From the IMG/VR virus record IMGVR_UViG_3300008267_007733, positions 1-26,540 of that record: DNA of 26,540 bases. The stretch is one strand, 5' to 3'. The stretch is from a virus. The notes below the pieces were generated by a model that saw nothing but the letters and a program-made list of their open reading frames with translations, was not told the origin of the DNA and ran no database searches. The position numbers and the translations under genes are program-made. Positions 5,391 to 21,016 of the stretch are shown in pieces. The stretch's first letter is position 1; every line of letters starts with the position of its first letter.

Positions 5391-5689
5391 CTTGATGTAT
5401 TTACTTGATTAATAACTTGTTGAATAATTTGTTTATCTGGAATACGTAATGTTGTATTTACTGGCACTATCAATGTTCCTTTTCCTAACCCATTTGCAAC
5501 AGCAATAGCCCACCACATTGTAGCATCTTGATAAAAATTTAAAGCTAATTTATCTAAACGCTCCGTTGATGTTGTTTGTATGTATACATCATTTGGCGAT
5601 GCTGGCATACTAGGAACAATGATTGTAGATTGTCGTTGTTTACCTTTTGAATTTTGTAATGTTGTGGCAGCTGCATATCTACTTGACAT
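5387..5689 (-). CDS. LysM-domain baseplate protein (gp53-like)
   Basis: A 100-residue protein whose residues 35-85 form a LysM-like fold: DVYIQTTSTERLDKLALNFY, then a Trp pair in MWWAIAVANGL, then VPVNTTLRIP. Small LysM proteins of this kind (T4 gp53, P2 gpX) sit in the baseplate next to the hub and help join wedges to hub. In this setting the domain serves protein assembly rather than peptidoglycan binding. The start lies after AGAAAG and is preceded by about 70 bases without a gene. The stop overlaps the hub start in an ATGA, suggesting coupled translation. Confidence 0.8.
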   Translation of the reverse strand: MSSRYAAATTLQNSKGKQRQSTIIVPSMPASPNDVYIQTTSTERLDKLALNFYQDATMWWAIAVANGLGKGTLIVPVNTTLRIPDKQIIQQVINQVNTSR

Positions 5690-5759
5690 TTTTTTATCTT
5701 TCTATTTATTAATTAGGGCTACTCCGTATCTAAAGTTTCATCAAAATCAGTAAATGCTG

Positions 5760-7781
5760 TTAAATCGCTAACGAGTTGAACGCGTTAGTAATGCGTTGTT
5801 CAATGCTTTCTTCAGCTGTAGGCGATGTTGTTAAACTTTCTTGTTCAAAAGCTCTAGATGGTACATTGGATTCGAAATCACTTAACCAATTATTATTACC
5901 TTCTATCGGCATATTATCGCGATCATATTCTCGAGCTAATCCAAAGAAACGACCATTGTTTTGTGGTATTGCATCTGAAATAATATTAAAGTTACATGAT
6001 ACTGATATTTTTCTCGGCGTTTCAAACATTTCTTTATCACCTTCGATATTAATTTCCCAAGAATGATCTAAATCATATGTATATGACAATGCCGTCATCA
6101 CCACCGGTGTTTGATGAAATAAATCTCCTAATGTGATTCGCATCCACGGAGCAGTTAATGCAATTGATGCACCATCATATTTTGGAGCACAATATCCGGC
6201 TAATGCATTTAATTTTCTCCAAGTTGGTTTAATTTCATCGCGATCTGTAATCACAATATCAAATCCAAGATCTAATGATCTACCAAAGCCGCCATAATGA
6301 TAATTGGGATCAGCGCGTCCAATCATTTTAACATCAGTCCACGATGGAGAAAATGTATCACTTAAACTAGTTAATATTGCACGAAAAACTATGATATCGT
6401 CAGCAATGCCTTCATTATTTCCGGTTCTGTCTCCGAATAAATAATTAGCTGTTAATGTTGGACCAGTTAAGAAAAATTTAATAAAATCTTTTGTTAATGA
6501 TGTTTTCGGAACTCGACCATTTTCTAATTGATTTCCACTTGATGGCTTCCATTGATATGCATTTTTTAACAAACGTTTGCCAAAGTCAATAACAGTAACT
6601 TTGTCGCCGCGGAACGGTGTTACGAGTTCAATTGGATTTCTAGTTCGAACAAATGAGCCAGAATTTATATTCGCCCATCTTGTTGCAACTTCACTTCGCA
6701 GAGTAAAATCGCTACGCAATGCAAACTGTGAATCATGATCGCCCCATCCATAACCATACTCTCCTACACCATTTAAATTAAATAATGAATATGCTCCGCC
6801 TGGTGTTAAAGATGTTGCTGCATAAAGTGAAGCTCGGGGACTAAAATTGCCGGGACGTATTGCAGCAGATGCCCCATCTTTACGAGCTTTACCAATTGCT
6901 GAACTAATTTTTACTGCTAAATTTGCATTTTGATTAGCAAATGAACTAGCAAAACGTTTAGCTCTAAAATCGCCATATGGTGCTAAATTACCTATAGAAT
7001 TAACAATATCAATAGTATCACCTGAAAAATTTATTTTATTAGTCAATTGATCAAATGGCAATGTAAAATATGTAGAATTAACCACATCTTTTTGATCAGT
7101 TGCTGCATCAAATACTTTTTGTGCACTTTGACCAATTTGTGGAAAACCTAATGCTCCTGCTGCAATTGAAGATGCATATCCAACACCATTTCTCGTAAAT
7201 TGTGAATTATTTAAATTGGTAAAATCTGATAATGTATTTGTAACTTGCCAATTTTCTATAGTTACATTTCCTTTAAATTGATCAGCATATTTATCATCTT
7301 TTGTGCCAGGTGTTGTTAAGCTAGCTTCTGTTGGGCCATATAATGTTTGCGATGGTGCTGCAGTTATTGGTTGCGTGCTTGGTTCAACAAATTGCGATGT
7401 ATGTTTTAAAGTTGGGTTTATAAACGTTGGATCAGGCAATATGTTAAATGGTGCTGAAAATTGTTGAGTAGCACCTGGATCAAATATTGTTGGATTAGAT
7501 AATTGTTGCGTTGGAGCAGCAAAACCTAATACTGGGTTCGATCCTACGCCAGTGGTTGTGCCTATACTACTAGCAGCAATAAATTGAGATGCATATACGG
7601 TAGTTGGATTTGTAAATATAGTATCTGGTAACACGTTAAATGGTGCAGTAAATTGAAATCCAGAGTACTCTGTTGGATTTTGGAATCCTAATATATTTGA
7701 ACTAATCCAATTTTCTTGTTGAGTGGAAATATTGAATGGTTCCGTAAATTGTGATCCTGCTTCTAGCGTTGGGTTACTCAT
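5760..7781 (-). CDS. Baseplate / tail-tube initiator-like protein (gp48/gp54-like)
   Basis: A 673-residue structural protein. The C-terminal half (about 390-610) contains RNPIELVTPFRGDKVTVIDF, then VFRAILTSLSDTFSPSWTDV, then WRKLNALAGYCAP and a tube-like beta region around YTYDLDHSWEINIEGD. This pattern I associate with T4-like proteins that cap the baseplate and start the tail tube. The N-terminal 140 residues are a degenerate repeat around NPT, QF and PFN (for example at 16-20, 43-48 and 105-115) and are probably extended. The start has AAGGA six bases upstream, inside the end of the tape-measure gene. A second reading frame just past the stop looks coding (see findings). The family call is from memory of sequence patterns and is moderate. 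Confidence 0.6.
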   Translation of the reverse strand: MSNPTLEAGSQFTEPFNISTQQENWISSNILGFQNPTEYSGFQFTAPFNVLPDTIFTNPTTVYASQFIAASSIGTTTGVGSNPVLGFAAPTQQLSNPTIFDPGATQQFSAPFNILPDPTFINPTLKHTSQFVEPSTQPITAAPSQTLYGPTEASLTTPGTKDDKYADQFKGNVTIENWQVTNTLSDFTNLNNSQFTRNGVGYASSIAAGALGFPQIGQSAQKVFDAATDQKDVVNSTYFTLPFDQLTNKINFSGDTIDIVNSIGNLAPYGDFRAKRFASSFANQNANLAVKISSAIGKARKDGASAAIRPGNFSPRASLYAATSLTPGGAYSLFNLNGVGEYGYGWGDHDSQFALRSDFTLRSEVATRWANINSGSFVRTRNPIELVTPFRGDKVTVIDFGKRLLKNAYQWKPSSGNQLENGRVPKTSLTKDFIKFFLTGPTLTANYLFGDRTGNNEGIADDIIVFRAILTSLSDTFSPSWTDVKMIGRADPNYHYGGFGRSLDLGFDIVITDRDEIKPTWRKLNALAGYCAPKYDGASIALTAPWMRITLGDLFHQTPVVMTALSYTYDLDHSWEINIEGDKEMFETPRKISVSCNFNIISDAIPQNNGRFFGLAREYDRDNMPIEGNNNWLSDFESNVPSRAFEQESLTTSPTAEESIEQRITNAFNSLAI

Positions 7782-7789
7782 CGTGTTCC

Positions 7790-9565
7790 TTATCCGTAAT
7801 ATGCACTATTAATACCAGCGCCAAATGTATTATCTCGTTTTGATAATATGCGTGTTTGATTTCGTATTTCTGCAATCAATTCATCTATTTTAGCAGCCAT
7901 GTTGCTACCGCCAGTTGATGTGTTTGGAAACAAATTTGTTCCTGCAACAATTGTGTCATCATTATTTAATGCAAACGTATCTTCTCCTGCTAGCAATATG
8001 CGATCGCCGTATCCCGTTGGTGTTGCAATAAGGTCATTTGTTGTTTCTGCTTTTCCGTACTTCGGTGTGTTGATTCCTCCAGCTTGAACTACTCCTGTTA
8101 ATGCTTGTTTTATAGTACCGGGTATCTGAGCAGTTAATAATAGTCTAGCAAGATCGTCAATCCGGTCTTGATCCATGTTAGCTTGTGCTGCAGTCATTTC
8201 ATCAACGGCTGCCGTAAAATCATCGCGCATTGCTTGTGTAGAGTTTCTAGCAAAATCTATTTTTTGCATGATTAATGATTCTGTTGACATTTGTAATTGT
8301 TGTTGTAACAATTCTTCTGTATCTCTCTGATCAGCATTGGTTTGAAATTTTTGAAGTTCTTCGGCGGTTAATGCCCCAGTCTCAGCTAAATGTTGAGCCG
8401 CTGCTGCTATTGATCCATCATCATCTAAATTAATAGTTAAGCCAGCTTCTGCAGCTTTATCTAGAATTTTTTGTTTTTGTATAGCCGCCGCAAGTTGTTG
8501 TTCTTGAATACCTAGTAAATCAGCCATTTGTTTTCTAGCAAATAAATTCTTTTCTAACATTTCGCCTTGTTCGCCTACAATTTGTGTCATTACATCTGCT
8601 TGGGCATTCATATCACCGCGAAGCGTTGCTTCTCGATATAAATTAGTTAAACTTTGATTTTGATCATTAACTAATCGATTTCCGGTTAATAATTGGTATT
8701 CTAACTCTTTACCTATACTACTTTCTATATCTAGTAATGCCTCGCCAGACCCGGCTAAATCTTCTAATTTTAAACCCAAACGTGCTGCTTTAATAGCAGC
8801 TTTTTCTAATGAACCAGGCAAACGACCATATTGTAATTGAATATCTGATCCTGCTTCGGCAATTGCTTCAGTTATCATTTTAACATAACCCATATCACCT
8901 TGCGTATCGCCAAACGCTTCTGCTACCGCTTGAGTAAATTTTAATTGTTGAGCTGCATTGCCGGCATTGGCTGCAGCATATTGTGAAAATGAATCTGCTT
9001 GTTCCGCAGATAAACCTATAGATCGATCCAATAAAAAATTTGTTTGCATTAGGCCTTTATAAAAACCTTTTTCATCTTGCATGTTTGCACCCAATTGTTT
9101 CAAATTAGGTAATAATTTTTTAATATTTCCGGAATATTGACCTAATAACTCTGCAGAAATTTTAGTTTCAGCACTGTTACCGCTCATATCTTTTGACATT
9201 TGCAAAAATTGACTAGATAATTTTGCAGCTGCATTGAAGCCAACACCCATTGATTTTGAAATATTCTTAAATCCTTTTTCATAAAATGTAGCAGCCTGCG
9301 CTACTTTCATTAATGAGTCTTGAGTTGTTTGATTTAAACTAATGAATTGAGATATACCCAAATTTGTTTTAAGTACTTGAGAGTCTAATTTTATAAAAGC
9401 ATTGGTAGTACCTTCACTTACAATCGTAACTACTTCAGCTAATGCCGCAGGTACACCTTGTGCTGCAGTTATTAATTGATCAAAAAAGTTTGTCCATTCG
9501 GTACTAGAAGGCATACCGTGACGAGGCTGTTGCTTTAATTGTTGTATGAATTGTTGCTGAGTCAT
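7790..9565 (-). CDS. Tail length tape measure protein (gp29-like)
   Basis: The 591 residues nearly equal T4 gp29 (590). The sequence is mostly helical and rich in Ala, Gln and Leu, with many predicted coiled stretches (for example 325-470). The end of the coding part holds YGDRILLAGEDTFALNNDD followed by TIVAGTNLF, a tail-measure ending seen in many phages. Such proteins fill the tail tube and set its length. The gene comes straight after the gp26-like gene and its overlapping small ORF, the normal place for a tape measure. It has its own promoter-like ATATTTATA about 15 bases before the ATG but no obvious Shine-Dalgarno. Eight bases separate its stop from the next start. Confidence 0.85.
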   Translation of the reverse strand: MTQQQFIQQLKQQPRHGMPSSTEWTNFFDQLITAAQGVPAALAEVVTIVSEGTTNAFIKLDSQVLKTNLGISQFISLNQTTQDSLMKVAQAATFYEKGFKNISKSMGVGFNAAAKLSSQFLQMSKDMSGNSAETKISAELLGQYSGNIKKLLPNLKQLGANMQDEKGFYKGLMQTNFLLDRSIGLSAEQADSFSQYAAANAGNAAQQLKFTQAVAEAFGDTQGDMGYVKMITEAIAEAGSDIQLQYGRLPGSLEKAAIKAARLGLKLEDLAGSGEALLDIESSIGKELEYQLLTGNRLVNDQNQSLTNLYREATLRGDMNAQADVMTQIVGEQGEMLEKNLFARKQMADLLGIQEQQLAAAIQKQKILDKAAEAGLTINLDDDGSIAAAAQHLAETGALTAEELQKFQTNADQRDTEELLQQQLQMSTESLIMQKIDFARNSTQAMRDDFTAAVDEMTAAQANMDQDRIDDLARLLLTAQIPGTIKQALTGVVQAGGINTPKYGKAETTNDLIATPTGYGDRILLAGEDTFALNNDDTIVAGTNLFPNTSTGGSNMAAKIDELIAEIRNQTRILSKRDNTFGAGINSAYYG

Positions 9566-11291: not shown

Positions 11292-13775
11292 CTATTCTGG
11301 GAATGTTGCGCCCGTAGGTTGAATATTGAAATCTAATATGATAAATTCTGCCGTTCTTGTTGGTTGAAGGAAGATTTGACCATATAAAATATTCTGATCA
11401 ATCAAGTCCGGTGTGTTGTTTGTTTGATCCATAACAACGCGGAATGCATAAAGGCCTTGATTGGCTCTTACTTGTTCCATGTATGGGTTAACAATGCTTA
11501 AGAAACGGTTACGTGTTGCATTTGTATTTTGTTCAAACACTAAATAACGAGTTGAAGATGCAATAAATTTCTTAACTGCAATCAACAAGCGGCGCACATT
11601 AACGCGGTCTAATGCACTTGGTCGAGCCTGTAGTGTCTTTTGACCCCAAACAACAATTCCATCGTTTAAGAAGTTCGCAATAGGATTAATACGAGCTTCA
11701 TACAATGTATCACGATCTGATTGTGATAATTTAAGATATGTGTCTGTTGCAGTAATCAAACCACGATTCAAACCTGCAGGTGCATACCATGGAGCTTGCG
11801 TGTTATCATTGAATGCCAATACTCCTGGAATAAGAGTTGATGGTGGTACCCAAGTTGGAATATTATTTGCACCCGTAATGCGAAGCCATGGCCAATATGC
11901 TGCTGTATAATTGCTATCCAATGATGTTACTTGATTAACTGCGGTATTGATTGAATCAGTTAATCTATTAGTATCCATCACAAAGAATGTATCTTGACGA
12001 GTTTCAGCCAATGTGCGAGCTAATCCAGTTACATATGGATGCAAACTATCAATAATACCAGGCGTAACAAGTAAGTTCATATCATAGTAATCAGCATTGC
12101 TTAACAATGTAAATGCTTTGTTATATGATTTAGTACCTGTTGATGTTGCTGCTGAACAATTGAAACCAAATGTATTTGTTGCACTAATATACTGCCCTGA
12201 ATATTTTTTCAAGTTTGGTTTAGCTCCATCAAATCCTCCCTGGAATGGAAGAATGAATTTACGAGTTGATGTTGCAACATTTGTAGTAAACGTACCAGCA
12301 ACCAATGCAGATTGTAATGAACCTGAATATGCTGTCGTAATTGTTGGGAAACCTGCATCTGCATCTTGACTTACATCACCTAAATAAAAATCTGAGTTGC
12401 TACCTGTATTCGAACCCGATGTTGGAATTGGAGCTAAATAGTTCATGTTATTTTGAACGGTAAAATTGAATCCAAAATAATTGTTACTATTATATGTACT
12501 AGATACAACTTGTGATGTAGCATATGTTGCTGGACGAATATTCAATGAACCCGATGCCATTGGAATTGGTGTAGATAATGAACGGAATCCAAATGGAACT
12601 AAAGCAGGGTCAATCAAACGATCTGCTACATTTGCATCTACTTCTACTCGTATGTATTTTGAAATATTTGGATAATCTCCATTGATAAGAAGTTGATTTG
12701 AATCATTAACTGTTTGATAACGATTACCAATTCTTCTTGCAATATAGTTTGGAGATGTAGGATCTAAATTAACATTTAAATATGTTTCTACAATATCCGG
12801 TGCACCATCAGTGTCTTGTGATGAATAAGGTGAATTCAAAAGACCAGGTGCAGGAGTTGATGTATTAACTCGACGTACTTCAACCGTAAATGATCCATAA
12901 CCATTTGGATCTGGGGTTTCTGATCCTAATTTAATGTCACGAATACCAACTTTGGTTTCATAGTTAACTGATGTACCATGTGATAAAGTATGGAAACGGA
13001 ACAAGTTTCTAGTAATTGAACCAATTTTTTGTGATGTAATCCATGGTGTTGACGCAGTTTGATAATCTTGCAAAAATTCAAAATTTGAAAGTTTTGCTAA
13101 TTCCATAGTAACGTCACCTAAGTTATTAAATAAACTTGATGCATTAAGATTTTCATACTGAACATAAACTGGATAGTTTACTGATTTAGGATCACGTTGG
13201 AAAACTTTTGCAACATATTCATTGTTTGTAGAAACAATTGATGCTGAAATTGCTGTACCTTCAGTTGCTAAAAATGCGCCGCTAAATCCAATTGCTGAAT
13301 CAGCACCTGCTGCATATGATCCTGAAATTTTAATTGCAAATGACCCAGAACCGCCATTAAGCAATACTGAATCTTCGAATAATGCTGTTGCACCATCCGA
13401 TGTTACTGCTTGAGTTGGATGAAGTACATGTGTTACAGCTTGTACTGCTGATGCACCCGAACCTGATTTTGCAATGATTGCTAATGCACCGTTAGTTAAA
13501 TAATATCCATCTTCATACAACAAACGTGTTACTGTAATTACATTGCCGCCTTTAGCTAAATAATCTTGAACTACATATGGTACATATGAATCTGTAGTTG
13601 TTGGTCCAAATACTTCTTGAAATTGACCAAAACTAGTAATTTGTGTCGGGATGAGCGCAGGACCTTTTACGGTTGGGCCTACAATTGCCGCGCCAATTTG
13701 TGCAACGCCTCCAGCTAAAAACGATTGATCTACTTCGTTCGTAAATACGCCTGGAGAAACTATTCTTTCTGCCAT
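11292..13775 (-). CDS. Tail sheath protein (gp18-like)
   Basis: An 827-residue contractile sheath subunit. The N-terminus MAERIVSPGVFTNEVDQSF is typical of gp18 proteins and probably links neighbouring subunits. The C-terminal third holds the conserved polymerising domain: FFVMDTNRL, WYAPAGLNRG, then ARINPIANFLNDGIVVWGQK and RPSALDRVNVRRLL, ending in AEFIILDFNIQPTGA. T4 gp18 is 659 residues, so this protein carries about 170 extra residues, most likely in the surface-exposed middle domains (about 100-480). A strong Shine-Dalgarno (AGGAG) precedes the start. Promoter-like element upstream and terminator downstream make it a single-gene unit. It has only one cysteine that I can find. Confidence 0.95.
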   Translation of the reverse strand: MAERIVSPGVFTNEVDQSFLAGGVAQIGAAIVGPTVKGPALIPTQITSFGQFQEVFGPTTTDSYVPYVVQDYLAKGGNVITVTRLLYEDGYYLTNGALAIIAKSGSGASAVQAVTHVLHPTQAVTSDGATALFEDSVLLNGGSGSFAIKISGSYAAGADSAIGFSGAFLATEGTAISASIVSTNNEYVAKVFQRDPKSVNYPVYVQYENLNASSLFNNLGDVTMELAKLSNFEFLQDYQTASTPWITSQKIGSITRNLFRFHTLSHGTSVNYETKVGIRDIKLGSETPDPNGYGSFTVEVRRVNTSTPAPGLLNSPYSSQDTDGAPDIVETYLNVNLDPTSPNYIARRIGNRYQTVNDSNQLLINGDYPNISKYIRVEVDANVADRLIDPALVPFGFRSLSTPIPMASGSLNIRPATYATSQVVSSTYNSNNYFGFNFTVQNNMNYLAPIPTSGSNTGSNSDFYLGDVSQDADAGFPTITTAYSGSLQSALVAGTFTTNVATSTRKFILPFQGGFDGAKPNLKKYSGQYISATNTFGFNCSAATSTGTKSYNKAFTLLSNADYYDMNLLVTPGIIDSLHPYVTGLARTLAETRQDTFFVMDTNRLTDSINTAVNQVTSLDSNYTAAYWPWLRITGANNIPTWVPPSTLIPGVLAFNDNTQAPWYAPAGLNRGLITATDTYLKLSQSDRDTLYEARINPIANFLNDGIVVWGQKTLQARPSALDRVNVRRLLIAVKKFIASSTRYLVFEQNTNATRNRFLSIVNPYMEQVRANQGLYAFRVVMDQTNNTPDLIDQNILYGQIFLQPTRTAEFIILDFNIQPTGATFPE

Positions 13776-14113: not shown

Positions 14114-14992
14114 TTAAATTTCTTTTATAATTTTTGATATATCAAACATTTCTTCCAAACTAAAATATGGACATTCGTGAGTTACACCTTCAAATGAATA
14201 ATCAAATAAATATGAATCTATCAATTTAACTGTGTTTGTTGGTGGGTTCGCTTCGATATTTTTATGCAATGAATAACCAAAGTTTTTAGCAGATGTCCCA
14301 ATCCAAAATACATTTGATTGCAGATTCATTGCAGCTGCTGCATGTTGCAAACAAGAATCAATTAAAATTCTTTTATCTGCAACTGCTAACAATGCAAATA
14401 ACTCCATTGCCGATGTTTGATAATCAATAATTTCAGCACCTTCAATTTTTAATGATGATGGTTTACATATTTGAATGATATGATGCGTTTCTTTGTATTT
14501 GTCTGCAAGTTGTTTGGATATATTAAATGGAATATCTCTAGTCCATGAATATTCTAAATTGCTATTTAATGGTCCGCCGTTTGTTTGAATTAATAAAATT
14601 GGTTTTTCTCGTTGCCAATTTATTGAATTTCTTTGTTGAACAAAATTAAAATTTAAAACTGGCATTTGAAAATCATATTTAATATCTAATATCTTGCACC
14701 AGTTTGCAATTAAATGTTTATTCTTTAAAATGTGTTGAGTTTCAAAATACGGTTCATGTCTAAAAATAAGTGTATCTTTATCTTTGATATAATCATCATA
14801 AAAATACTGTGTAACGCCTAGTTTATAAACACGATATACAGCTGGATGATTTAGAAATACTTCAGGGTATGATGCTACTACTACAATTTTTCTATCAGAA
14901 TATTTTTCTTGTAAACTGTTTAACAATGCAGTACCGGCAACGTTCTTACCTAAACCGCCTTCAATATGCCAAACTATATATTTTTCTTCCAT
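14114..14992 (-). CDS. GT9-like (heptosyltransferase-family) glycosyltransferase
   Basis: A 292-residue protein of apparent GT-B fold. The N-terminus has IEGGLGKNVAGTALLNSL (10-27), the glycine-rich start seen in family 9 glycosyltransferases. It is followed by an alternating beta/alpha run with VVVASYPEVFLNHPAVYRVY. The C-terminal half has ILLIQTNGG, HIIQICKPS and LIDSCLQHAAAAMN (210-223) with VFWIGTS, matching the donor-binding DSGxxHxAAA region, although Gly is replaced by Cys. Family members move heptose or related sugars onto lipopolysaccharide or protein. Its start overlaps the preceding gene by 19 bases, so it is the last gene of the modification operon. Acceptor and sugar cannot be read from the sequence. 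Confidence 0.7.
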   Translation of the reverse strand: MEEKYIVWHIEGGLGKNVAGTALLNSLQEKYSDRKIVVVASYPEVFLNHPAVYRVYKLGVTQYFYDDYIKDKDTLIFRHEPYFETQHILKNKHLIANWCKILDIKYDFQMPVLNFNFVQQRNSINWQREKPILLIQTNGGPLNSNLEYSWTRDIPFNISKQLADKYKETHHIIQICKPSSLKIEGAEIIDYQTSAMELFALLAVADKRILIDSCLQHAAAAMNLQSNVFWIGTSAKNFGYSLHKNIEANPPTNTVKLIDSYLFDYSFEGVTHECPYFSLEEMFDISKIIKEI

Positions 14993-15438
14993 AATTTTTT
15001 ATTTCCTATTTTAATATATTTGTACCAAATACGTTCGTGAAAAAAATATAAAATGGGTTTAATTAATAATTCTCCAACACCTAACAATGAAGATAACTCT
15101 AAAGAAACACCTAAAGCATAAGCCGTAAATATAGTTGTTATTGTGCCTAAAATACGATATGAAAATGTTTTTAAAATATGACGAGTCATAACAGCATCTT
15201 CTTTTGTTGTTATAACATAAGCTACATTGTTTTGAATATTAACATAACCTTCGCAACTAATATGCCATTTATAATCTTGTAAATCTTCCATCCAATCTTT
15301 TGATGTATATGTATGACCATCCACTATAATATCAGACACTAAAGTTTCTTCACCATCAGCAATTAATCTCCAACGATCATTTTCGCCGGTAGATACTGTA
15401 TTAAATCGAATTTGAAATTTTTTTATTTTTGCTTTCAT
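14974..15438 (-). CDS. Membrane protein with C-terminal DUF2061-like domain
   Basis: A 154-residue protein in two parts. Residues 1-80 are soluble and beta-rich (FQIRFNTVSTGENDRWRLI, later YKWHISCEGYV), like short proteins I recall from other marine phages. Residues 84-142 fit the DUF2061 family: RHILKTFSYRILGTITTIFT, a hydrophobic segment at about 95-112 and another at 114-134, then FFHERIWYKY. It would sit in the host inner membrane with two spans. It starts in an ATGA overlap with the nucleotidyltransferase gene and has AAGG six bases upstream. It is the only clear membrane protein in the window. I believe DUF2061 genes occur near APS kinase genes elsewhere, but could not check this. Confidence 0.7.
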   Translation of the reverse strand: MKAKIKKFQIRFNTVSTGENDRWRLIADGEETLVSDIIVDGHTYTSKDWMEDLQDYKWHISCEGYVNIQNNVAYVITTKEDAVMTRHILKTFSYRILGTITTIFTAYALGVSLELSSLLGVGELLIKPILYFFHERIWYKYIKIGNKKLWKKNI

Positions 15439-15839
15439 AACTTGCCTTGCATGCGCATTTGTTCTCTAACTTTTGTAGCTGAAATATCTGCAATTTCCGC
15501 CGGCGGAATATGTTCAATAATATCATATCCAACACCTCTGCCAAATTCAATTGAACAAATATCAGGAATAATACTTACTTTAATTCGTCCTTGACTGCAA
15601 AGTTCTTTATATTCATTGCTAATGTTTTTGAGTACTTCTTGAGCATCAAAAGGGTTTGATTCAGTTGTTTCTACATCTCGAATTGCAATCCATACATTTT
15701 TTCCAGCATCCAATGCTTGTTGAAACAACGCTTTATGTCCTGGGTGTAATGGTTGCCATCTTCCAACAAATAATGCATATTGATTTGGTTTAGATTCTAA
15801 TGATGATTTTACGTGAATTTTTTTATCCCAAGTTTGCAT
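15435..15839 (-). CDS. Small HxGH-type nucleotidyltransferase
   Basis: A 134-residue enzyme of the cytidylyltransferase-like superfamily. The ATP-binding signature GRWQPLHPGH is at 26-35 and the second signature ISATKVR at 119-125 (ISSTxxR type). Between them are AIRDVETTESNPF and EFGRGVGYDI. These enzymes join a nucleotide to a phosphate or sulfate group, releasing pyrophosphate. True ATP sulfurylases share the fold and an HxGH motif but are far longer (near 390 residues), so the substrate is open. Its start overlaps the end of the APS kinase gene by 17 bases and its end overlaps the next gene by 4. Making APS for that kinase is the attractive guess; NMN or sugar-phosphate substrates are alternatives. 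Confidence 0.75.
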   Translation of the reverse strand: MQTWDKKIHVKSSLESKPNQYALFVGRWQPLHPGHKALFQQALDAGKNVWIAIRDVETTESNPFDAQEVLKNISNEYKELCSQGRIKVSIIPDICSIEFGRGVGYDIIEHIPPAEIADISATKVREQMRMQGKL

Positions 15840-16260
15840 AACTTTTTATTTTATTTAAACATTCAGTAACTGAACAATTTGTTGTATCTACATCTAAATA
15901 ATTTTCAGTTGGTGCTTGATATGTTTCTACATGAAATTGTTCTCGTCCTCTAATTTCAGAAGTATGAACATAAAACTCTTTTAAAGACTGATTCATTTTA
16001 TCTTTAAATTGATCTCGTTGGTCTTTATATGGCGAAACTAATGACACAACAACATTGCATCCTTTATTGTGTAAAAAATGTGCTATTTTTTGAGCCAATT
16101 CAATATTTTTGCGACGACCTGATTCACTATAATCTTTGTTTTCAAATATAGCTCGTAAGTCATCACCGTCAATATGAAATGTGTTATCTAACTCATTTAA
16201 TAAAGCAGTTGCTAAAACCGTTTTACCATGTCCAGGTTGTCCCGTAAACCAATATATCAT
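15823..16260 (-). CDS. APS kinase-like protein (CysC family)
   Basis: A 145-residue P-loop kinase starting at MIYWFTGQPG; the frame stays open upstream but that stretch overlaps another gene and has no family similarity. The Walker A GQPGHGKT is at 7-14, FHIDGDDLR at 28-36, the substrate-binding RRKN at 49-52 and SLVSPYKDQRD at 73-83, all in the order of APS kinases, which phosphorylate adenylyl sulfate to PAPS. After residue 100, EIRGREQFHVETYQAP replaces the usual CysC ending, so this is a divergent subgroup. It is shorter than cellular CysC (about 200). It begins 17 bases after the 79-residue gene and overlaps the nucleotidyltransferase start. Confidence 0.8.
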   Translation of the reverse strand: MIYWFTGQPGHGKTVLATALLNELDNTFHIDGDDLRAIFENKDYSESGRRKNIELAQKIAHFLHNKGCNVVVSLVSPYKDQRDQFKDKMNQSLKEFYVHTSEIRGREQFHVETYQAPTENYLDVDTTNCSVTECLNKIKSYANLG

Positions 16261-16277
16261 AACTTTTTTAGTTGATT

Positions 16278-16517
16278 TTATGCGGTGTATGTGTTTCCGG
16301 CAGTAATAGCGGCATTGATATCGGTTTTTTGTTGTGTAGTACAACCATCTACAAACCAATCTTTACCCATCATAATTTCAAGATGTTGAACATTACGTTT
16401 TACAGTATCTTTACGATTGTCAGTTGCTTCTTGAGTGATTTCGTTGTTAATTAGATTAACTGAATCAAATGCTGCACTAATATGTTGTTGAATTTGTTCT
16501 GGTGTCGGGGTTTCCAT
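16278..16517 (-). CDS. Unknown conserved small phage protein
   Basis: A 79-residue protein, MRNA start well supported by AAAGGA before the ATG and a promoter-like ATATTTATA upstream. The sequence is helical and polar, with NVQHLEIMMGKDWFVDGCTT near residues 42-61. I recall similar short proteins, of unknown role, in T4-like phages of marine cyanobacteria. No enzyme motif is visible. It is the first gene of the transcript that continues into the APS kinase, nucleotidyltransferase, DUF2061-like and glycosyltransferase genes. Confidence 0.75.
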   Translation of the reverse strand: METPTPEQIQQHISAAFDSVNLINNEITQEATDNRKDTVKRNVQHLEIMMGKDWFVDGCTTQQKTDINAAITAGNTYTA

Positions 16518-16530
16518 GTTATTCCTTTAT

Positions 16531-16539
16531 TATAAATAT
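16531..16539 (-). promoter_or_regulatory. Promoter-like ATATTTATA before the modification operon
   Basis: Coding strand ATATTTATA-ATAAAGG, 13 bases before the ATG of the 79-residue gene and touching the sulfotransferase stop codon. It would start a transcript carrying the kinase, nucleotidyltransferase, membrane protein and glycosyltransferase genes. Confidence 0.55.
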
Positions 16540-17360
16540 TAAATGTAATTAAAAGCTCTAAAATACCAATCATAATGTTGACGTAAACGATCGCATTGTT
16601 CTTTTCCAAGAATTTCAATAAAATTGTCTTTTACTGGTTTTACTTGTGGTTGAATTTTATGATCTCCGAATATTCCATGAATAACATCATTTTCATGTGT
16701 CAATTGTTCAACGTTATTAAAATCATGTTTAAAATATGGTAATTCTAAATACTCATAGATTTTTTTCAATTCAGTTTCAGGATCTGTTGTCAAATCTTCA
16801 AATCGAATAAATAAAATATCTTTGTCTATTCCTTGATGAATTGCTTCAGATAACCACTCCATTGAAGGTCCAATTGGAGGAGCAACTGAAAAATGATCTA
16901 CGCGTGCTCCGGTAGTCATATTTTTTAATTCAACACCATTAATAATCATTGGATCTTTATCTGGATGTTTACGGAAATTTTTCTCCATAGATGCAAATAT
17001 AGCACGCAAATCTCGTACCATAACGACCATTTTAGGTTTTTCTTCCATGAAAAATTCAATAAAATTAAAATGACCTAACCAACCTCTACTTTTTTCCATT
17101 ACATATGGGCGATCAGTAATTCCATCAAAAAAACCATATAATCCAGTTTTGCAGAAATTTTTAAATCCTGCTTTCATTACATCTTGATCTTGTGCTTTGA
17201 ATGCATCACCTGCAGAATAAACTGTTCTTGCATTTAATAAAAATTCAATTACACCTGATGTTGGTGTTGAATAGATATCTGGATTCTGCATCATGATATT
17301 TTGTAATAATGTTGAGCCAGCTCTTGGCATTGATGCATTATAAAATATTTTTTGTACCAT
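16539..17360 (-). CDS. PAPS-dependent sulfotransferase
   Basis: A 273-residue sulfotransferase-family protein. The 5'-phosphosulfate loop is PRAGSTLLQNI at 12-22. The 3'-phosphate site is VMVRDLRAIFAS at 113-124, with R116 and S124 eight residues apart as in characterised family members. FIRFEDLTTDPETELKKIYE (about 174-193) is the usual later helix region. Such enzymes move sulfate from PAPS to a hydroxyl or amine of a sugar, protein or small molecule. No signal peptide or membrane anchor is seen, so it would act in the host cytoplasm. It follows the 1200-residue fibre gene and precedes the operon with the APS kinase, which would supply its donor. Its acceptor is unknown; the fibre proteins or a glycan are candidates. 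Confidence 0.85.
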   Translation of the reverse strand: MVQKIFYNASMPRAGSTLLQNIMMQNPDIYSTPTSGVIEFLLNARTVYSAGDAFKAQDQDVMKAGFKNFCKTGLYGFFDGITDRPYVMEKSRGWLGHFNFIEFFMEEKPKMVVMVRDLRAIFASMEKNFRKHPDKDPMIINGVELKNMTTGARVDHFSVAPPIGPSMEWLSEAIHQGIDKDILFIRFEDLTTDPETELKKIYEYLELPYFKHDFNNVEQLTHENDVIHGIFGDHKIQPQVKPVKDNFIEILGKEQCDRLRQHYDWYFRAFNYI

Positions 17361-17413: not shown

Positions 17414-20400
17414 CTATGCTAATAATATTTTTTGCGTAACGCCATTAATAATAACTGTCCATGTTTTTGTTGATGTACAAGTTTCTGTAGTTACTGGGCC
17501 TAATGGTGTTCCGGTACTACCAACTACGAACTGACAATTGGCAGTAGATCTTGCATCTTTACCTAAAATTACTGAGAATGAACCTGTAAATTGAGTATTA
17601 TAACCTATACCAACGTTATGACTTCCTGTTGTTGCTGTATTAAGACAAAGAGCATTTTGACCAATTGCAATATTATTACTTCCTGAAACATTATTTTTTA
17701 AGGCATTAAAACCAATAGCTACGTTACGTGAACCCGTTACATTGCAGAATAAAGCACATGAACCCACTGAGGTATTATAACATCCTGTAGAAGTAAAAAA
17801 TCCGGCGGCGACACCAATGCCTACGTTACAACTTCCTGAGGTATTAAAACGAAGGGCACACCTTCCCATACCTAAATTATCATTACCAACTGAGTTGTAG
17901 TATAATCCACCTTGACCTAGAGATACGTTATTACACCCTGTAGTGTTGGCTTGGAGAGCTCTATTACCTAGTGCTAAATTACAGTTTCCAGTGGTATTTG
18001 AACGTAATGTGTAAGATCCTATTGCTACGTTAACAAAACCAGTAGTAGTAGCACACATTGACTCTCGACCAATTGCTACGTTCTTACCACTCAATTCTGT
18101 TGCTAATCGTAATGTTCTATACCCAATAGCAATATTATCGCTTCCTACTGAGTTAGAACAAAGGGAATTTCTTCCCATAGCAATGTTATGTGCTCCGGTT
18201 GTATTACAACGTAAAGAATATCTACCTAAAGCTATATTGTTATTTGCTGTAGTATTACTACATAATGCCATATACCCAATAGCAATATTATCACACCCCG
18301 TTGTATTATTTCGTAATGACCATAATCCTCCTCCAGCAGTATTATGACATCCGGTAGTGTTATATCGTAATGAAATTATACCTAAAGCTACATTATAACG
18401 CCCTGTTGTATTTGCATATAAATTAAAATACCCAATTGCTAGATTATTACATCCGGTTGTGTTATTTCGTAAAGCTGTATGTCCTATCCCTATGTTATTT
18501 TTACCAGTAGTTGATTGTAATGCATATCTACCAATTGCTACATTTTGACAACCTGTGCTATTAGTATTCAAAGCCATATAACCGATTGCAACATTGTTTC
18601 GACCAGTAGTAGTATTAGCTAATGCCCGAAAACCTACGCCTATATTACTGTATCCGGATGATAAAAGTCTTAAAGCACAACTGCCGATAGCAACATTATT
18701 TGCACCAGTTGCAGAACTGCTTAAAGTAGTTGCTGCACCAATTGCTACGTTAGACGCAACGGCACCTCCGCCGGTGCTAATTCGTATTCCATTGATCGAA
18801 CCAGTAACAACTAATGATCCAGTAATTTCAGCAGAGCCAGTAAATGGAAATGCTGCTCCGCCAGCACTAGGTGCCCAAGAAGCGGATAAAGCTGATAAAG
18901 CAAATGAAGCAGTACCTGCAAATCCAATGCCTGATCCAGTAGTGGCAAAAAATGATGTTGAACGAGTTTGACCAAATAATTGAGTTCTATATACATCACT
19001 ATTACCAATAGTTGTAGTATTAGTACCTGCCCCTGAAGAACCACTACCAATTACAATTTCATTTCGATCATTATTGCAAAGTGGGTTTGCACCAGGGCCA
19101 ATGATGATGGAAGAGGTTAATGATGTTAAAGGGGAGCCGGCGCAATCTACGTTAGCGGCGCCATAGCCTATTGCTACATTGAATGAACCAGTATTTAATT
19201 TCATCAGAGCACTTAAACCTATTGCTATATTAGACTGTCCGTCTGTGTTATCTTGTAATGCACGACGACCTATTGCTATATTTAAGTTACCGGTAGTAAT
19301 TCTATATAATGATTGATCACCTAGAGCTATATTACCACAATTACTCCATATACATGCGCCATAAGTTGGATATCCTACATAGCAATATGTTCCAAGTAAA
19401 GCATATGCACCTAAAGCAATATTACTATTTGAGTTAACATGGTATGAAGAGCAATTGCCTATTGAAATGCTATTAGATCCGCTTATATTTTTAGTTAAAG
19501 CAGCGAAACCTATTGCAGTATTGTGATTTCCGGTTGTATTAGTTTGTAAAGCACTTTGACCAATTGCGGTATTATAATTTCCGGTTGTGTTGTATCCTAA
19601 AGTATATCTTCCGATTGCTGTGTTATTATTTCCGGTTGTATTATTTAGTAAAGCATTAAAACCTAGTGCTGTATTATTATTTCCTGTGTCATTAGCTTGT
19701 AATGCACGATTACCTAATGCTATATTATTATTTGAGATTGTATTACTATATAAAGCATTTTTACCTATTGCTATATTATCAATTCCGGTTGTATTATATT
19801 TTAAAGCATTTGGACCTATTGCTGTATTATAGCTTCCGCTTGTATTAGTGCGTAAAGCAGCTAGACCTATTGCTGTATTATAATTTCCTACGCTATTACC
19901 CCTTAAAGCACTATAACCTATTGCAGTGTTATTAATCCCATCTGTATTACAACTTAAAGCATAAGTGCCTATTGCTGTATTATTATCTCCATTTCTGTTA
20001 GAGCATAAAGCATTAGTACCTATTGCTATGTTGCATCGACCGCAACTATAACCGTTAACACCTCGGAGAGCAAAATCACCTATTGCAATATTTGCTCTGG
20101 TAGAAGTAACATATCGTAAAGACTCTCGGCCAATTGCTATGTGGTAGTTTCCGTCAACATTTTTTGCTAAAGTACGACAACCTATTGCTATGTTATAAGC
20201 TCCGGTTGTATTACTATATAATGCAGATTGACCTATTGCTACATTATTAGCTCCAGATATATTATAATATAAAGCACGATATCCTTGAGCTATATTGTAT
20301 GCTCCTGTAGTATTTTTACATAATGCTTGGCGACCAATTGCAATATTTTTATATCCAGTTGTATTACTATTTAATGTAAATTCTCCTATTGCTACATTGG

Positions 20401-21016
20401 AGTATCCTGTAGTAGTATCACGTAATGCATATTCACCTATTGCTATATTTTGGGTTCCAGTTGTGTTAGAAGTTAAAGCATTGCGGCCTAGTGCTATATT
20501 ATTACTTCCTGATTCATTATTAAATAAGGAACCACTACCTATAGCAATATTGTTTATACCTACGGCACTTGAAGAAAATGCAGTTGTAGCACCAATTGAA
20601 ACGTTGGATGAAATGTTTCCGCCTCCAAGTCCAATAAATAAATTATTGATTGAACCTGTTACACCTAACGAACCTGTTATTTGAGCTGATCCTGTAAATG
20701 GAAATGGGTTTGATGGGGCACTAGGTGCCCATGATGCCGATACAGCAAACGAAGCAGTTACTGCTCTTGAAGAAGAAACAGCAAATGATGCACTCGTAGC
20801 AAATGAACTTGAAACAGCATTTAAGACATATGAAGCAGTTTGAGCGGTTTGCACAAATGATGCGGTACTAGCAAATGAACTTGATATTGTTGTTGTTGCA
20901 AATGAAGCGGTTCCAAAAAGAGAACCAGTTATACCGGCTGAAACATTAAGTGATCCGGTTATGTTAGATGATCCTTCTGAGAAGAATCCATTTTTTATGC
21001 GAAATTCGTTTGCCAT
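17414..21016 (-). CDS. Giant tail fibre with two YadA-like beta-roll repeat arrays
   Basis: A 1200-residue fibre. Residues 1-100 open with MANEFRIKNGFFSEGSSNIT and then TASFA/SSFA repeats, a likely trimeric shaft attaching to the virion. Residues 91-155 are a connector (SASWAPSA, FPFTGSAQITGSLGVTGSIN). About 155-630 is the first array, roughly 27 copies of a 17-residue unit of the form NNIAIGxxALxxNTTGx. A second connector nearly copying the first follows, then about 22 more units to residue 1150. The IAIG motif and repeat length resemble the left-handed beta-roll of YadA-type adhesin heads. The C-terminus ends STKTWTVIINGVTQKILLA, a small capping domain. By eye it has 31 cysteines. Expected role is receptor binding or reach; the receptor is unknown. 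Confidence 0.85.
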   Translation of the reverse strand: MANEFRIKNGFFSEGSSNITGSLNVSAGITGSLFGTASFATTTISSSFASTASFVQTAQTASYVLNAVSSSFATSASFAVSSSRAVTASFAVSASWAPSAPSNPFPFTGSAQITGSLGVTGSINNLFIGLGGGNISSNVSIGATTAFSSSAVGINNIAIGSGSLFNNESGSNNIALGRNALTSNTTGTQNIAIGEYALRDTTTGYSNVAIGEFTLNSNTTGYKNIAIGRQALCKNTTGAYNIAQGYRALYYNISGANNVAIGQSALYSNTTGAYNIAIGCRTLAKNVDGNYHIAIGRESLRYVTSTRANIAIGDFALRGVNGYSCGRCNIAIGTNALCSNRNGDNNTAIGTYALSCNTDGINNTAIGYSALRGNSVGNYNTAIGLAALRTNTSGSYNTAIGPNALKYNTTGIDNIAIGKNALYSNTISNNNIALGNRALQANDTGNNNTALGFNALLNNTTGNNNTAIGRYTLGYNTTGNYNTAIGQSALQTNTTGNHNTAIGFAALTKNISGSNSISIGNCSSYHVNSNSNIALGAYALLGTYCYVGYPTYGACIWSNCGNIALGDQSLYRITTGNLNIAIGRRALQDNTDGQSNIAIGLSALMKLNTGSFNVAIGYGAANVDCAGSPLTSLTSSIIIGPGANPLCNNDRNEIVIGSGSSGAGTNTTTIGNSDVYRTQLFGQTRSTSFFATTGSGIGFAGTASFALSALSASWAPSAGGAAFPFTGSAEITGSLVVTGSINGIRISTGGGAVASNVAIGAATTLSSSATGANNVAIGSCALRLLSSGYSNIGVGFRALANTTTGRNNVAIGYMALNTNSTGCQNVAIGRYALQSTTGKNNIGIGHTALRNNTTGCNNLAIGYFNLYANTTGRYNVALGIISLRYNTTGCHNTAGGGLWSLRNNTTGCDNIAIGYMALCSNTTANNNIALGRYSLRCNTTGAHNIAMGRNSLCSNSVGSDNIAIGYRTLRLATELSGKNVAIGRESMCATTTGFVNVAIGSYTLRSNTTGNCNLALGNRALQANTTGCNNVSLGQGGLYYNSVGNDNLGMGRCALRFNTSGSCNVGIGVAAGFFTSTGCYNTSVGSCALFCNVTGSRNVAIGFNALKNNVSGSNNIAIGQNALCLNTATTGSHNVGIGYNTQFTGSFSVILGKDARSTANCQFVVGSTGTPLGPVTTETCTSTKTWTVIINGVTQKILLA
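17590..18705 (-). repeat. Second beta-roll array (about 22 units of 51 bases)
   Basis: In-frame tandem repeats encoding about 22 units, each near 17 residues, around xNVAIGxxALxxNTTG. Unit 8 is irregular (AGGGLWSL) and unit 12 has a two-residue insertion. Many units carry Cys just before the Asn pair (TTGCNN, TTGCDN). Less uniform than the first array. Confidence 0.85.
18700..18895 (-). repeat. Second copy of the fibre connector module
   Basis: Encodes SASWAPSAGGAAFPFTGSAE, TGSLVVTGSIN, a Gly-rich turn and SNVAIGAATTLSSSATG. It closely matches the first connector at about 20550-20745 (SASWAPSA, FPFTGSAQ, TGSLGVTGSIN, SNVSIGATTAFSSSAVG), showing that connector plus array was duplicated as a block. 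Confidence 0.85.
19140..20560 (-). repeat. First beta-roll array (about 27 units of 51 bases)
   Basis: In-frame tandem repeats encoding about 27 units. Units 12-15 and 18-21 share NTAIG with near-identical neighbours and look like recent copies, while units 10 and 23 carry inserted loops (SCGR, and a 14-residue loop with GYPTYGACIWSN). Confidence 0.85.
20550..20745 (-). repeat. First copy of the fibre connector module
   Basis: Encodes residues about 91-155 of the giant fibre: SASWAPSA, FPFTGSAQITGSLGVTGSIN, a Gly-rich turn and SNVSIGATTAFSSSAVG. Paired with the copy at 18700-18895. Confidence 0.85.

Follow-up and report, generated by a model that had tools for sequence, protein, structure and literature searches.

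Can a phage both activate sulfate and transfer it to an acceptor with enzymes of its own? The question is raised by five genes at positions 14114–17360 of a 26,540-base virus record, IMGVR_UViG_3300008267_007733, the whole of which is called the window here. An initial annotation, made from the letters of the sequence, placed a sulfotransferase (ST), an adenosine 5'-phosphosulfate (APS) kinase (KIN), a small nucleotidyltransferase (NT), a DUF2061-like membrane protein, and a glycosyltransferase (GT) there, and all five open reading frames (ORFs) are found in that position on the minus strand. The set is real and not a chance arrangement, because the genes recur in more than 100 viral loci. The cassette is probably a compact module for sulfate activation and sulfation, with NT as a minimal enzyme of the ATP-sulfurylase type.

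In the proposed pathway, NT would convert ATP and sulfate to APS and pyrophosphate. KIN, judged by its family match and the substrate residues it has kept, would phosphorylate APS to 3'-phosphoadenosine 5'-phosphosulfate (PAPS), and ST, judged by its family, would transfer the sulfuryl group of PAPS to an acceptor. The first step is unfavorable and would be drawn forward by the overlap of NT with KIN or their fusion, as in PAPS synthetases. The acceptor, the weakest step, would probably be a glycan, located on the virion, the fiber, or the host surface, that the GT9-fold enzyme makes or lengthens. The same NT would run in reverse in SAR11 cells lacking KIN, forming ATP and sulfate from APS and pyrophosphate after APS reductase. 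The cassette would be a variant of a known pathway type, and what is new is a candidate enzyme family, NT, at its first step. If the scheme is true, what these phages carry for sulfation is not one isolated auxiliary gene but the whole pathway in portable form.

Co-Occurrence and Fusion in Phages

A scan of IMG/VR gave 502 NT relatives. In all, 111 loci were read, and 72 of them, examined with iterated profiles, had enough flanking sequence. KIN is present in all 72 of these loci, the DUF2061 gene in 71, ST in 58, and GT in 55, although several or many loci are near-copies and the counts are therefore not independent. The cassette genes share the strand of NT in every case, but their order varies, with at least five arrangements seen. 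PF03567, a sulfotransferase family unrelated to ST, occurs in five of the loci without ST. It is directly upstream of KIN in four of them (L035–L037 and L039) and upstream of NT by about 1.3 kb in the fifth (L175), bringing the loci with either sulfotransferase family to 63 of 72. The genes thus do co-occur in related phages, as the initial proposal required. When the search starts from ST, its close relatives have all the cassette genes wherever the flank is long enough. Among the distant relatives, L406–L408 have a KIN–NT fusion beside ST and the others have no KIN–NT pair.

KIN and NT are fused in two Stenotrophomonas phages, in SAR11, and in phage contig L406, where a sulfotransferase is adjacent; every fusion read here has the kinase at the N terminus and NT at the C terminus. 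The family phrog_10255, annotated merely as kinase or hypothetical in Stenotrophomonas phages, spans both in this way, KIN first and NT last, and no sulfotransferase is among its annotated neighbors. The shuffled gene orders, the fusion, and the swap of sulfotransferase are separate kinds of evidence. Sat (PF01747), the classical ATP sulfurylase, scored above its cut-off in none of 32 phage records. The initial proposal of a phage that produces PAPS itself and uses it for sulfation gains support from the family matches, the co-occurrence, the fusions, and the exchange of sulfotransferase families beside the same kinase; the part in which NT supplies APS is suggested by context.

Two phage contigs offer side observations. 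In L406, the ORF directly after the sulfotransferase (6804–8324) reads like a flavin-dependent tryptophan halogenase (GGGTAGWLTALYAKK). In L413, a sulfotransferase and KIN (6043–7106), with no NT detected, lie between fiber-like genes with collagen-like repeats.

The Kinase and the Sulfotransferase

KIN (15823–16260, minus strand, about 145 amino acids) matches PF01583 (APS_kinase) at 2e-15, with 57.6 bits against a curated cut-off of 21.1, and its best solved relatives are the APS kinases 8a8h (3.1e-9) and 7yq0 (4.2e-9). The motifs GQPGHGKT, DGDDLR, SESGRRKN, and VSPYKDQRD can be read in it. Aligned with Escherichia coli CysC, the window enzyme has a shorter lid and keeps DGDxxR, the Arg and Asn of the DRxxN stretch, and the SPYxxxR stretch. 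From their roles in solved APS kinases, we take DGDxxR, the R and N of DRxxN, and SPxxxxR to be APS-binding residues. The family match and the CysC alignment thus favor the initial assignment of an APS kinase with a P-loop and substrate motifs. The reading frame is open upstream to a TTG at 16359 (15823–16359), adding 33 unconserved residues. The TTG start is doubtful, and the most likely start is the ATG at 16260, where the conserved domain begins.

ST (16539–17360, minus strand, 273 amino acids) matches the Pfam families PF13469 (Sulfotransfer_3; 3.5e-14, 54 bits against a cut-off of 27) and PF00685 (7.6e-13). Its 5'-phosphosulfate-binding (5'-PSB) loop, MPRAGSTLL, and 3'-phosphate loop, VRDLRAIFAS, are both readable, and its description as a PAPS-type sulfotransferase with intact loops holds.

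The Nucleotidyltransferase in SAR11 and Other Bacteria

SAR11 are the ocean's most abundant bacteria and, among marine cells of all kinds, rank with the most numerous. Most possess AprBA and lack sat and cysDN, and their ATP sulfurylase step has been described as missing (PMC10356861, PMC5069961). Among bacterial genomes, a scan detected NT in SAR11, SAR86, one Marinimicrobia, and one Bacteroidota bin. In 68 of 73 SAR11 loci, an NT without a kinase lies directly upstream of aprM–aprB–aprA, and tauE-, suyAB-, and xsc-like genes are close by (neighbors were named by sequence reading and aprA by TIGR02061). In two genomes (L162, L163), a different NT lineage, accompanied by KIN, lies tail to tail with aprMBA. 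Other SAR11 clades have NT paired with KIN in a neighborhood of DmdA-like, MetF-like, and SBP56 genes. The kinase-less NTs beside apr share one clade with the KIN–NT fusions (97/93), consistent with a lost kinase and a reversed reaction.

Where cells have the KIN–NT pair, sulfotransferases accompany it in Marinimicrobia (L085, within a polysaccharide cluster), SAR86, the L162 and L163 genomes, and SAR11 genomes G447 and G714. A PF13469 sulfotransferase was found in six of seven tested genomes with KIN versus one of six with NT alone. The complete SAR11 genome G447, which carries KIN–NT, has a sulfotransferase as well. Classical Sat is present in 1 of 44 NT-bearing bacterial genomes and in 14 of 297 genomes of the SAR11 order, and CysN exceeds its cut-off in none of the 44. 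The CysN-family matches seen in SAR11 all fall below the cut-off; they were taken as elongation-factor-type GTPases and not counted. PF01507 matches in SAR11 were mostly weak, in frames of 519–523 amino acids, and were likewise not counted, and a single strong one (G018, L196) was not assigned. One rare SAR11 genome (L195) has a classical Sat next to CysC, paralleling the KIN–NT pair.

The metabolite common to the NT contexts is APS, either made from sulfite by AprBA or used by KIN, and the simplest reading from context is therefore an ATP-sulfurylase-type enzyme of minimal size. The SAR11 contexts are indirect evidence that APS is the product or substrate of NT. On balance, we lean toward the wider claim that ATP sulfurylases have, besides Sat and CysDN, a third and minimal type in NT, that phages combine it with an APS kinase and sulfotransferases to sulfate glycans on their own, and that most SAR11 use NT for the missing ATP-yielding last step of sulfite oxidation. 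If so, the ATP-yielding conversion by SAR11 of sulfite, derived from taurine and other sulfonates, to sulfate would be accounted for by an ATP sulfurylase of unusually small size, and a named gene is offered for the step described as missing (PMC10356861, PMC5069961).

A different reaction on APS, for example APS and phosphate giving ADP and sulfate, would also satisfy the SAR11 context, which demands only a step that consumes APS; NT might also be a regulatory remnant, with the phage host supplying APS. Four genomes that keep NT without aprA sit well with this idea. The NT active-site motifs are invariant, however, and phage NT is associated with a kinase that itself consumes APS and therefore needs a source of it, and we regard this alternative as improbable. 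In a complete SAR11 genome (L346; G447 C1:507537), the gene immediately upstream of aprM belongs to the HIT family. Members of this family can split APS, and the gene may be an alternative partner of AprBA.

Family Position of the Nucleotidyltransferase

NT (15435–15839, minus strand, 134 amino acids) belongs to the HIGH (CTP_transf_like) nucleotidyltransferase superfamily by profile (PF01467, 1.4e-6, 29 bits against a cut-off of 21), by its HxGH and ISxTxxR motifs, and by fold (VIA Z about 10). The motifs GRWQPLHPGH and ISATKVR can be read in the window enzyme. Across 62 diverse homologues, 22 positions are invariant, including GRxQPxH, R54, NP, GRGVGY, and SAT-R, which bears out the HxGH and ISATKVR motifs of the initial annotation. 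The AlphaFold2 model is confident (pLDDT 90.8).

Several observations weigh against an ATP sulfurylase, and they are gathered here. By sequence and by fold alike, Sat is more distant from NT than NadM and PPAT are. The structures nearest to the NT model are PPAT (Z 10.1) and NadM (Z 9.6). The 50 fold matches listed include no chain of an ATP sulfurylase, though a fold relation may still exist. The window NT scores 13.2 bits (E 0.059) on the curated Sat profile, below the cut-off of 24.3, and other phage NTs score 14–19 bits. KIN falls under the TIGR00455 APS kinase equivalog cut-off (68.1 versus 138.7 bits). A second KIN subgroup, comprising the SAR11, SAR86, and fused enzymes, mostly has NADxxR and GRxRQ and lacks the conserved Asn and the lid, so its substrate may differ; its assignment from sequence is less sure, and phage and SAR11 enzymes may not share a substrate. 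No recognized sulfotransferase is nearby in 9 of the 72 phage loci, and to this is added the near-copying of loci mentioned above. On the SAR11 side, the 297 genomes divide into 211 with NT and aprA, 18 with NT only, 29 with aprA only, and 39 with neither, counts that ignore descent and are taken from genomes whose completeness is not known. The genome-level association (211 of 240) may reflect lineage only, because in the KIN–NT clade of SAR11 aprMBA is located elsewhere, with a HIT-family gene beside it. Finally, NT is kept without both KIN and aprA in four SAR11 genomes. Because NT falls under the Sat cut-off and its nearest structures are NadM and PPAT, the initial annotation was right to call APS synthesis by NT unproven, and NT is not a classical ATP sulfurylase.

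The closeness to NadM raises the alternative that NT is a nicotinamide mononucleotide (NMN) or nicotinate mononucleotide (NaMN) adenylyltransferase and KIN a ribosylnicotinamide-type kinase, the two serving salvage of nicotinamide adenine dinucleotide (NAD) as mere neighbors of sulfation genes. NadM proteins are the closest solved relatives of NT (profile A2, 1.2e-8; Foldseek 1m8j, 7.6e-4), and in phage Bhz60 the fused KIN–NT adjoins a NADAR gene. The profile alignment with NadM, however, covers the first 75 core residues only, and the acceptor region that follows is about 20 residues shorter, with about 27 residues between P92 and ISATKxR versus about 47 in NadM. The NMN-binding helix of NadM is located in that stretch of about 47 residues. 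In the tree, NT forms its own clade, on the opposite side of a 100/99 branch from NadM, and it scores 27.1 bits on TIGR01527 (NadM), below the cut-off of 181.2. SAR11 has its own separate NadD and CoaD.

The SAR86 genome G041 (L248–L314), searched with E. coli queries, gave no nadA, nadC, nadD, or nadE, as an NAD role for NT might lead one to expect, yet it holds another HIGH-family protein, of 372 amino acids with a C-terminal HIGH nucleotidyltransferase (L274, 8327–9445), that may serve NAD synthesis. Its sole nadB-like match, a protein of 594 amino acids, was read as SdhA. Taken together, NAD salvage is very improbable. NT should be filed neither as Sat nor as NadM.

In L041, an HNH-like ORF upstream of NT is in frame with it in a 321-amino-acid frame (5431–6396), perhaps a homing endonuclease beside or fused to NT.

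The Glycosyltransferase, the DUF2061 Protein, and the Acceptor

GT (14114–14992, minus strand, 292 amino acids) matches no Pfam or NCBIfam family at E up to 0.1. Its AlphaFold2 model (pLDDT 84.7) is clearly of the GT9 fold, matching 1psw in Foldseek (4.2e-10) and 3tov at VIA Z 21.0 (root-mean-square deviation 3.5, 265 aligned residues), with Z about 19 to WaaC and TibC; matches outside this fold family begin at 9.7. The GT9-like call is therefore upheld by the modeled fold and not by a family match.

The presence of a GT9-fold enzyme in 55 of the 72 loci suggests another possible role for the pair. HldE consists of a HIGH-superfamily nucleotidyltransferase plus a kinase, and KIN and NT could, in like manner, make an ADP- or other nucleoside diphosphate (NDP)-activated sugar for GT, with the sulfotransferase using host PAPS. 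A gene with a SIS domain (GmhA-like) beside KIN–NT in L085, L236, and L237 weighs on the same side, and in L035 a HAD-like gene lies between KIN and NT. Yet KIN resembles APS kinase and not a sugar kinase, L035 and other loci have KIN–NT and a sulfotransferase with no GT9 detected, GT occurs without ST in no flank-complete locus, and no sugar context surrounds the kinase-less NT next to aprMBA. Sugar activation is fairly unlikely on this evidence, though a serious rival, and sulfate activation is retained as the working reading.

If a glycan is sulfated, the fiber neighborhood in the window is suggestive only as a pointer to where it sits. Sulfation of the fibers themselves, as initially suggested, is only a possibility: some loci with the same KIN and NT lie instead in polysaccharide clusters (L035, L085).

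The DUF2061 protein (14974–15438, minus strand, 154 amino acids) matches PF09834 at residues 88–138 (1.4e-14, 54.6 bits against a cut-off of 23.1), confirming the DUF2061-like membrane protein of the annotation. Its N-terminal domain of about 80 amino acids is uncharacterized. That domain also occurs as a stand-alone gene at L041 (5121–5429), L058 (5691–5999), and L406 (5448–5774), the last with no Pfam match. A search of plasmids for further context of the DUF2061 protein found none.

Relation to Known Systems

The proposed route, in which ATP and sulfate give first APS and then PAPS through two overlapping or fused enzymes, resembles that of the bifunctional PAPS synthetases. It differs in that NT has only 134 amino acids and scores under the Sat cut-off, and in that the kinase is N-terminal in the fusions and has a shortened lid. 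Sat shares with NT the proposed reaction and membership in the HIGH superfamily, and NT weakly matches positions 29–91 of the Sat profile, but it is far under the cut-off and lacks the other Sat domains. CysDN shares the proposed reaction, but its fold is unrelated. NadM and PPAT, with VIA Z of 9.6–10.1 and the GRFQPxHxGH and NPF motifs, are nearest in fold and sequence; NT differs in its clade, which is separate from NadM, in its shorter acceptor region, and in the family-specific invariant R54, GRxVGY, and E109.

In phages, the fused KIN–NT homologue in phrog_10255 is one likeness, and the cysC auxiliary metabolic genes, APS-kinase genes carried by phages, are another. The latter have been reported singly, as assimilatory sulfur genes, with no phage sulfate adenylyltransferase reported (PMC8190135). 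In literature searches on phage sulfation and on the pair, no title or abstract that describes the KIN–NT pair was found.

Layout and Neighboring Genes

The last four genes of the cassette overlap end to end, as first described, by 17 bp (KIN and NT), 4 bp (NT and the DUF2061 gene), and 19 bp (the DUF2061 gene and GT). No match to the cassette at the DNA level was found in deposited phage genomes. Between ST and KIN lies a small ORF of 79 amino acids (16278–16517, minus strand), absent from the initial annotation, with no family match and partial conservation, seen in 15 of the 72 loci. Profile matches place the cassette between fiber and sheath genes, as proposed, both on the minus strand and outside the pathway. 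Beyond GT and a 93-amino-acid ORF is a tail sheath gene (11292–13775, 827 amino acids; phrog_23 2.8e-69, PF04984 1.2e-13). On the other side is a fiber-like structural gene (17414–21016, 1200 amino acids) that matches phrog_23837 (3.9e-175) and the tail spike family phrog_4636 (4.3e-140) and is composed of many NTTGxxNxAIG-type repeats.

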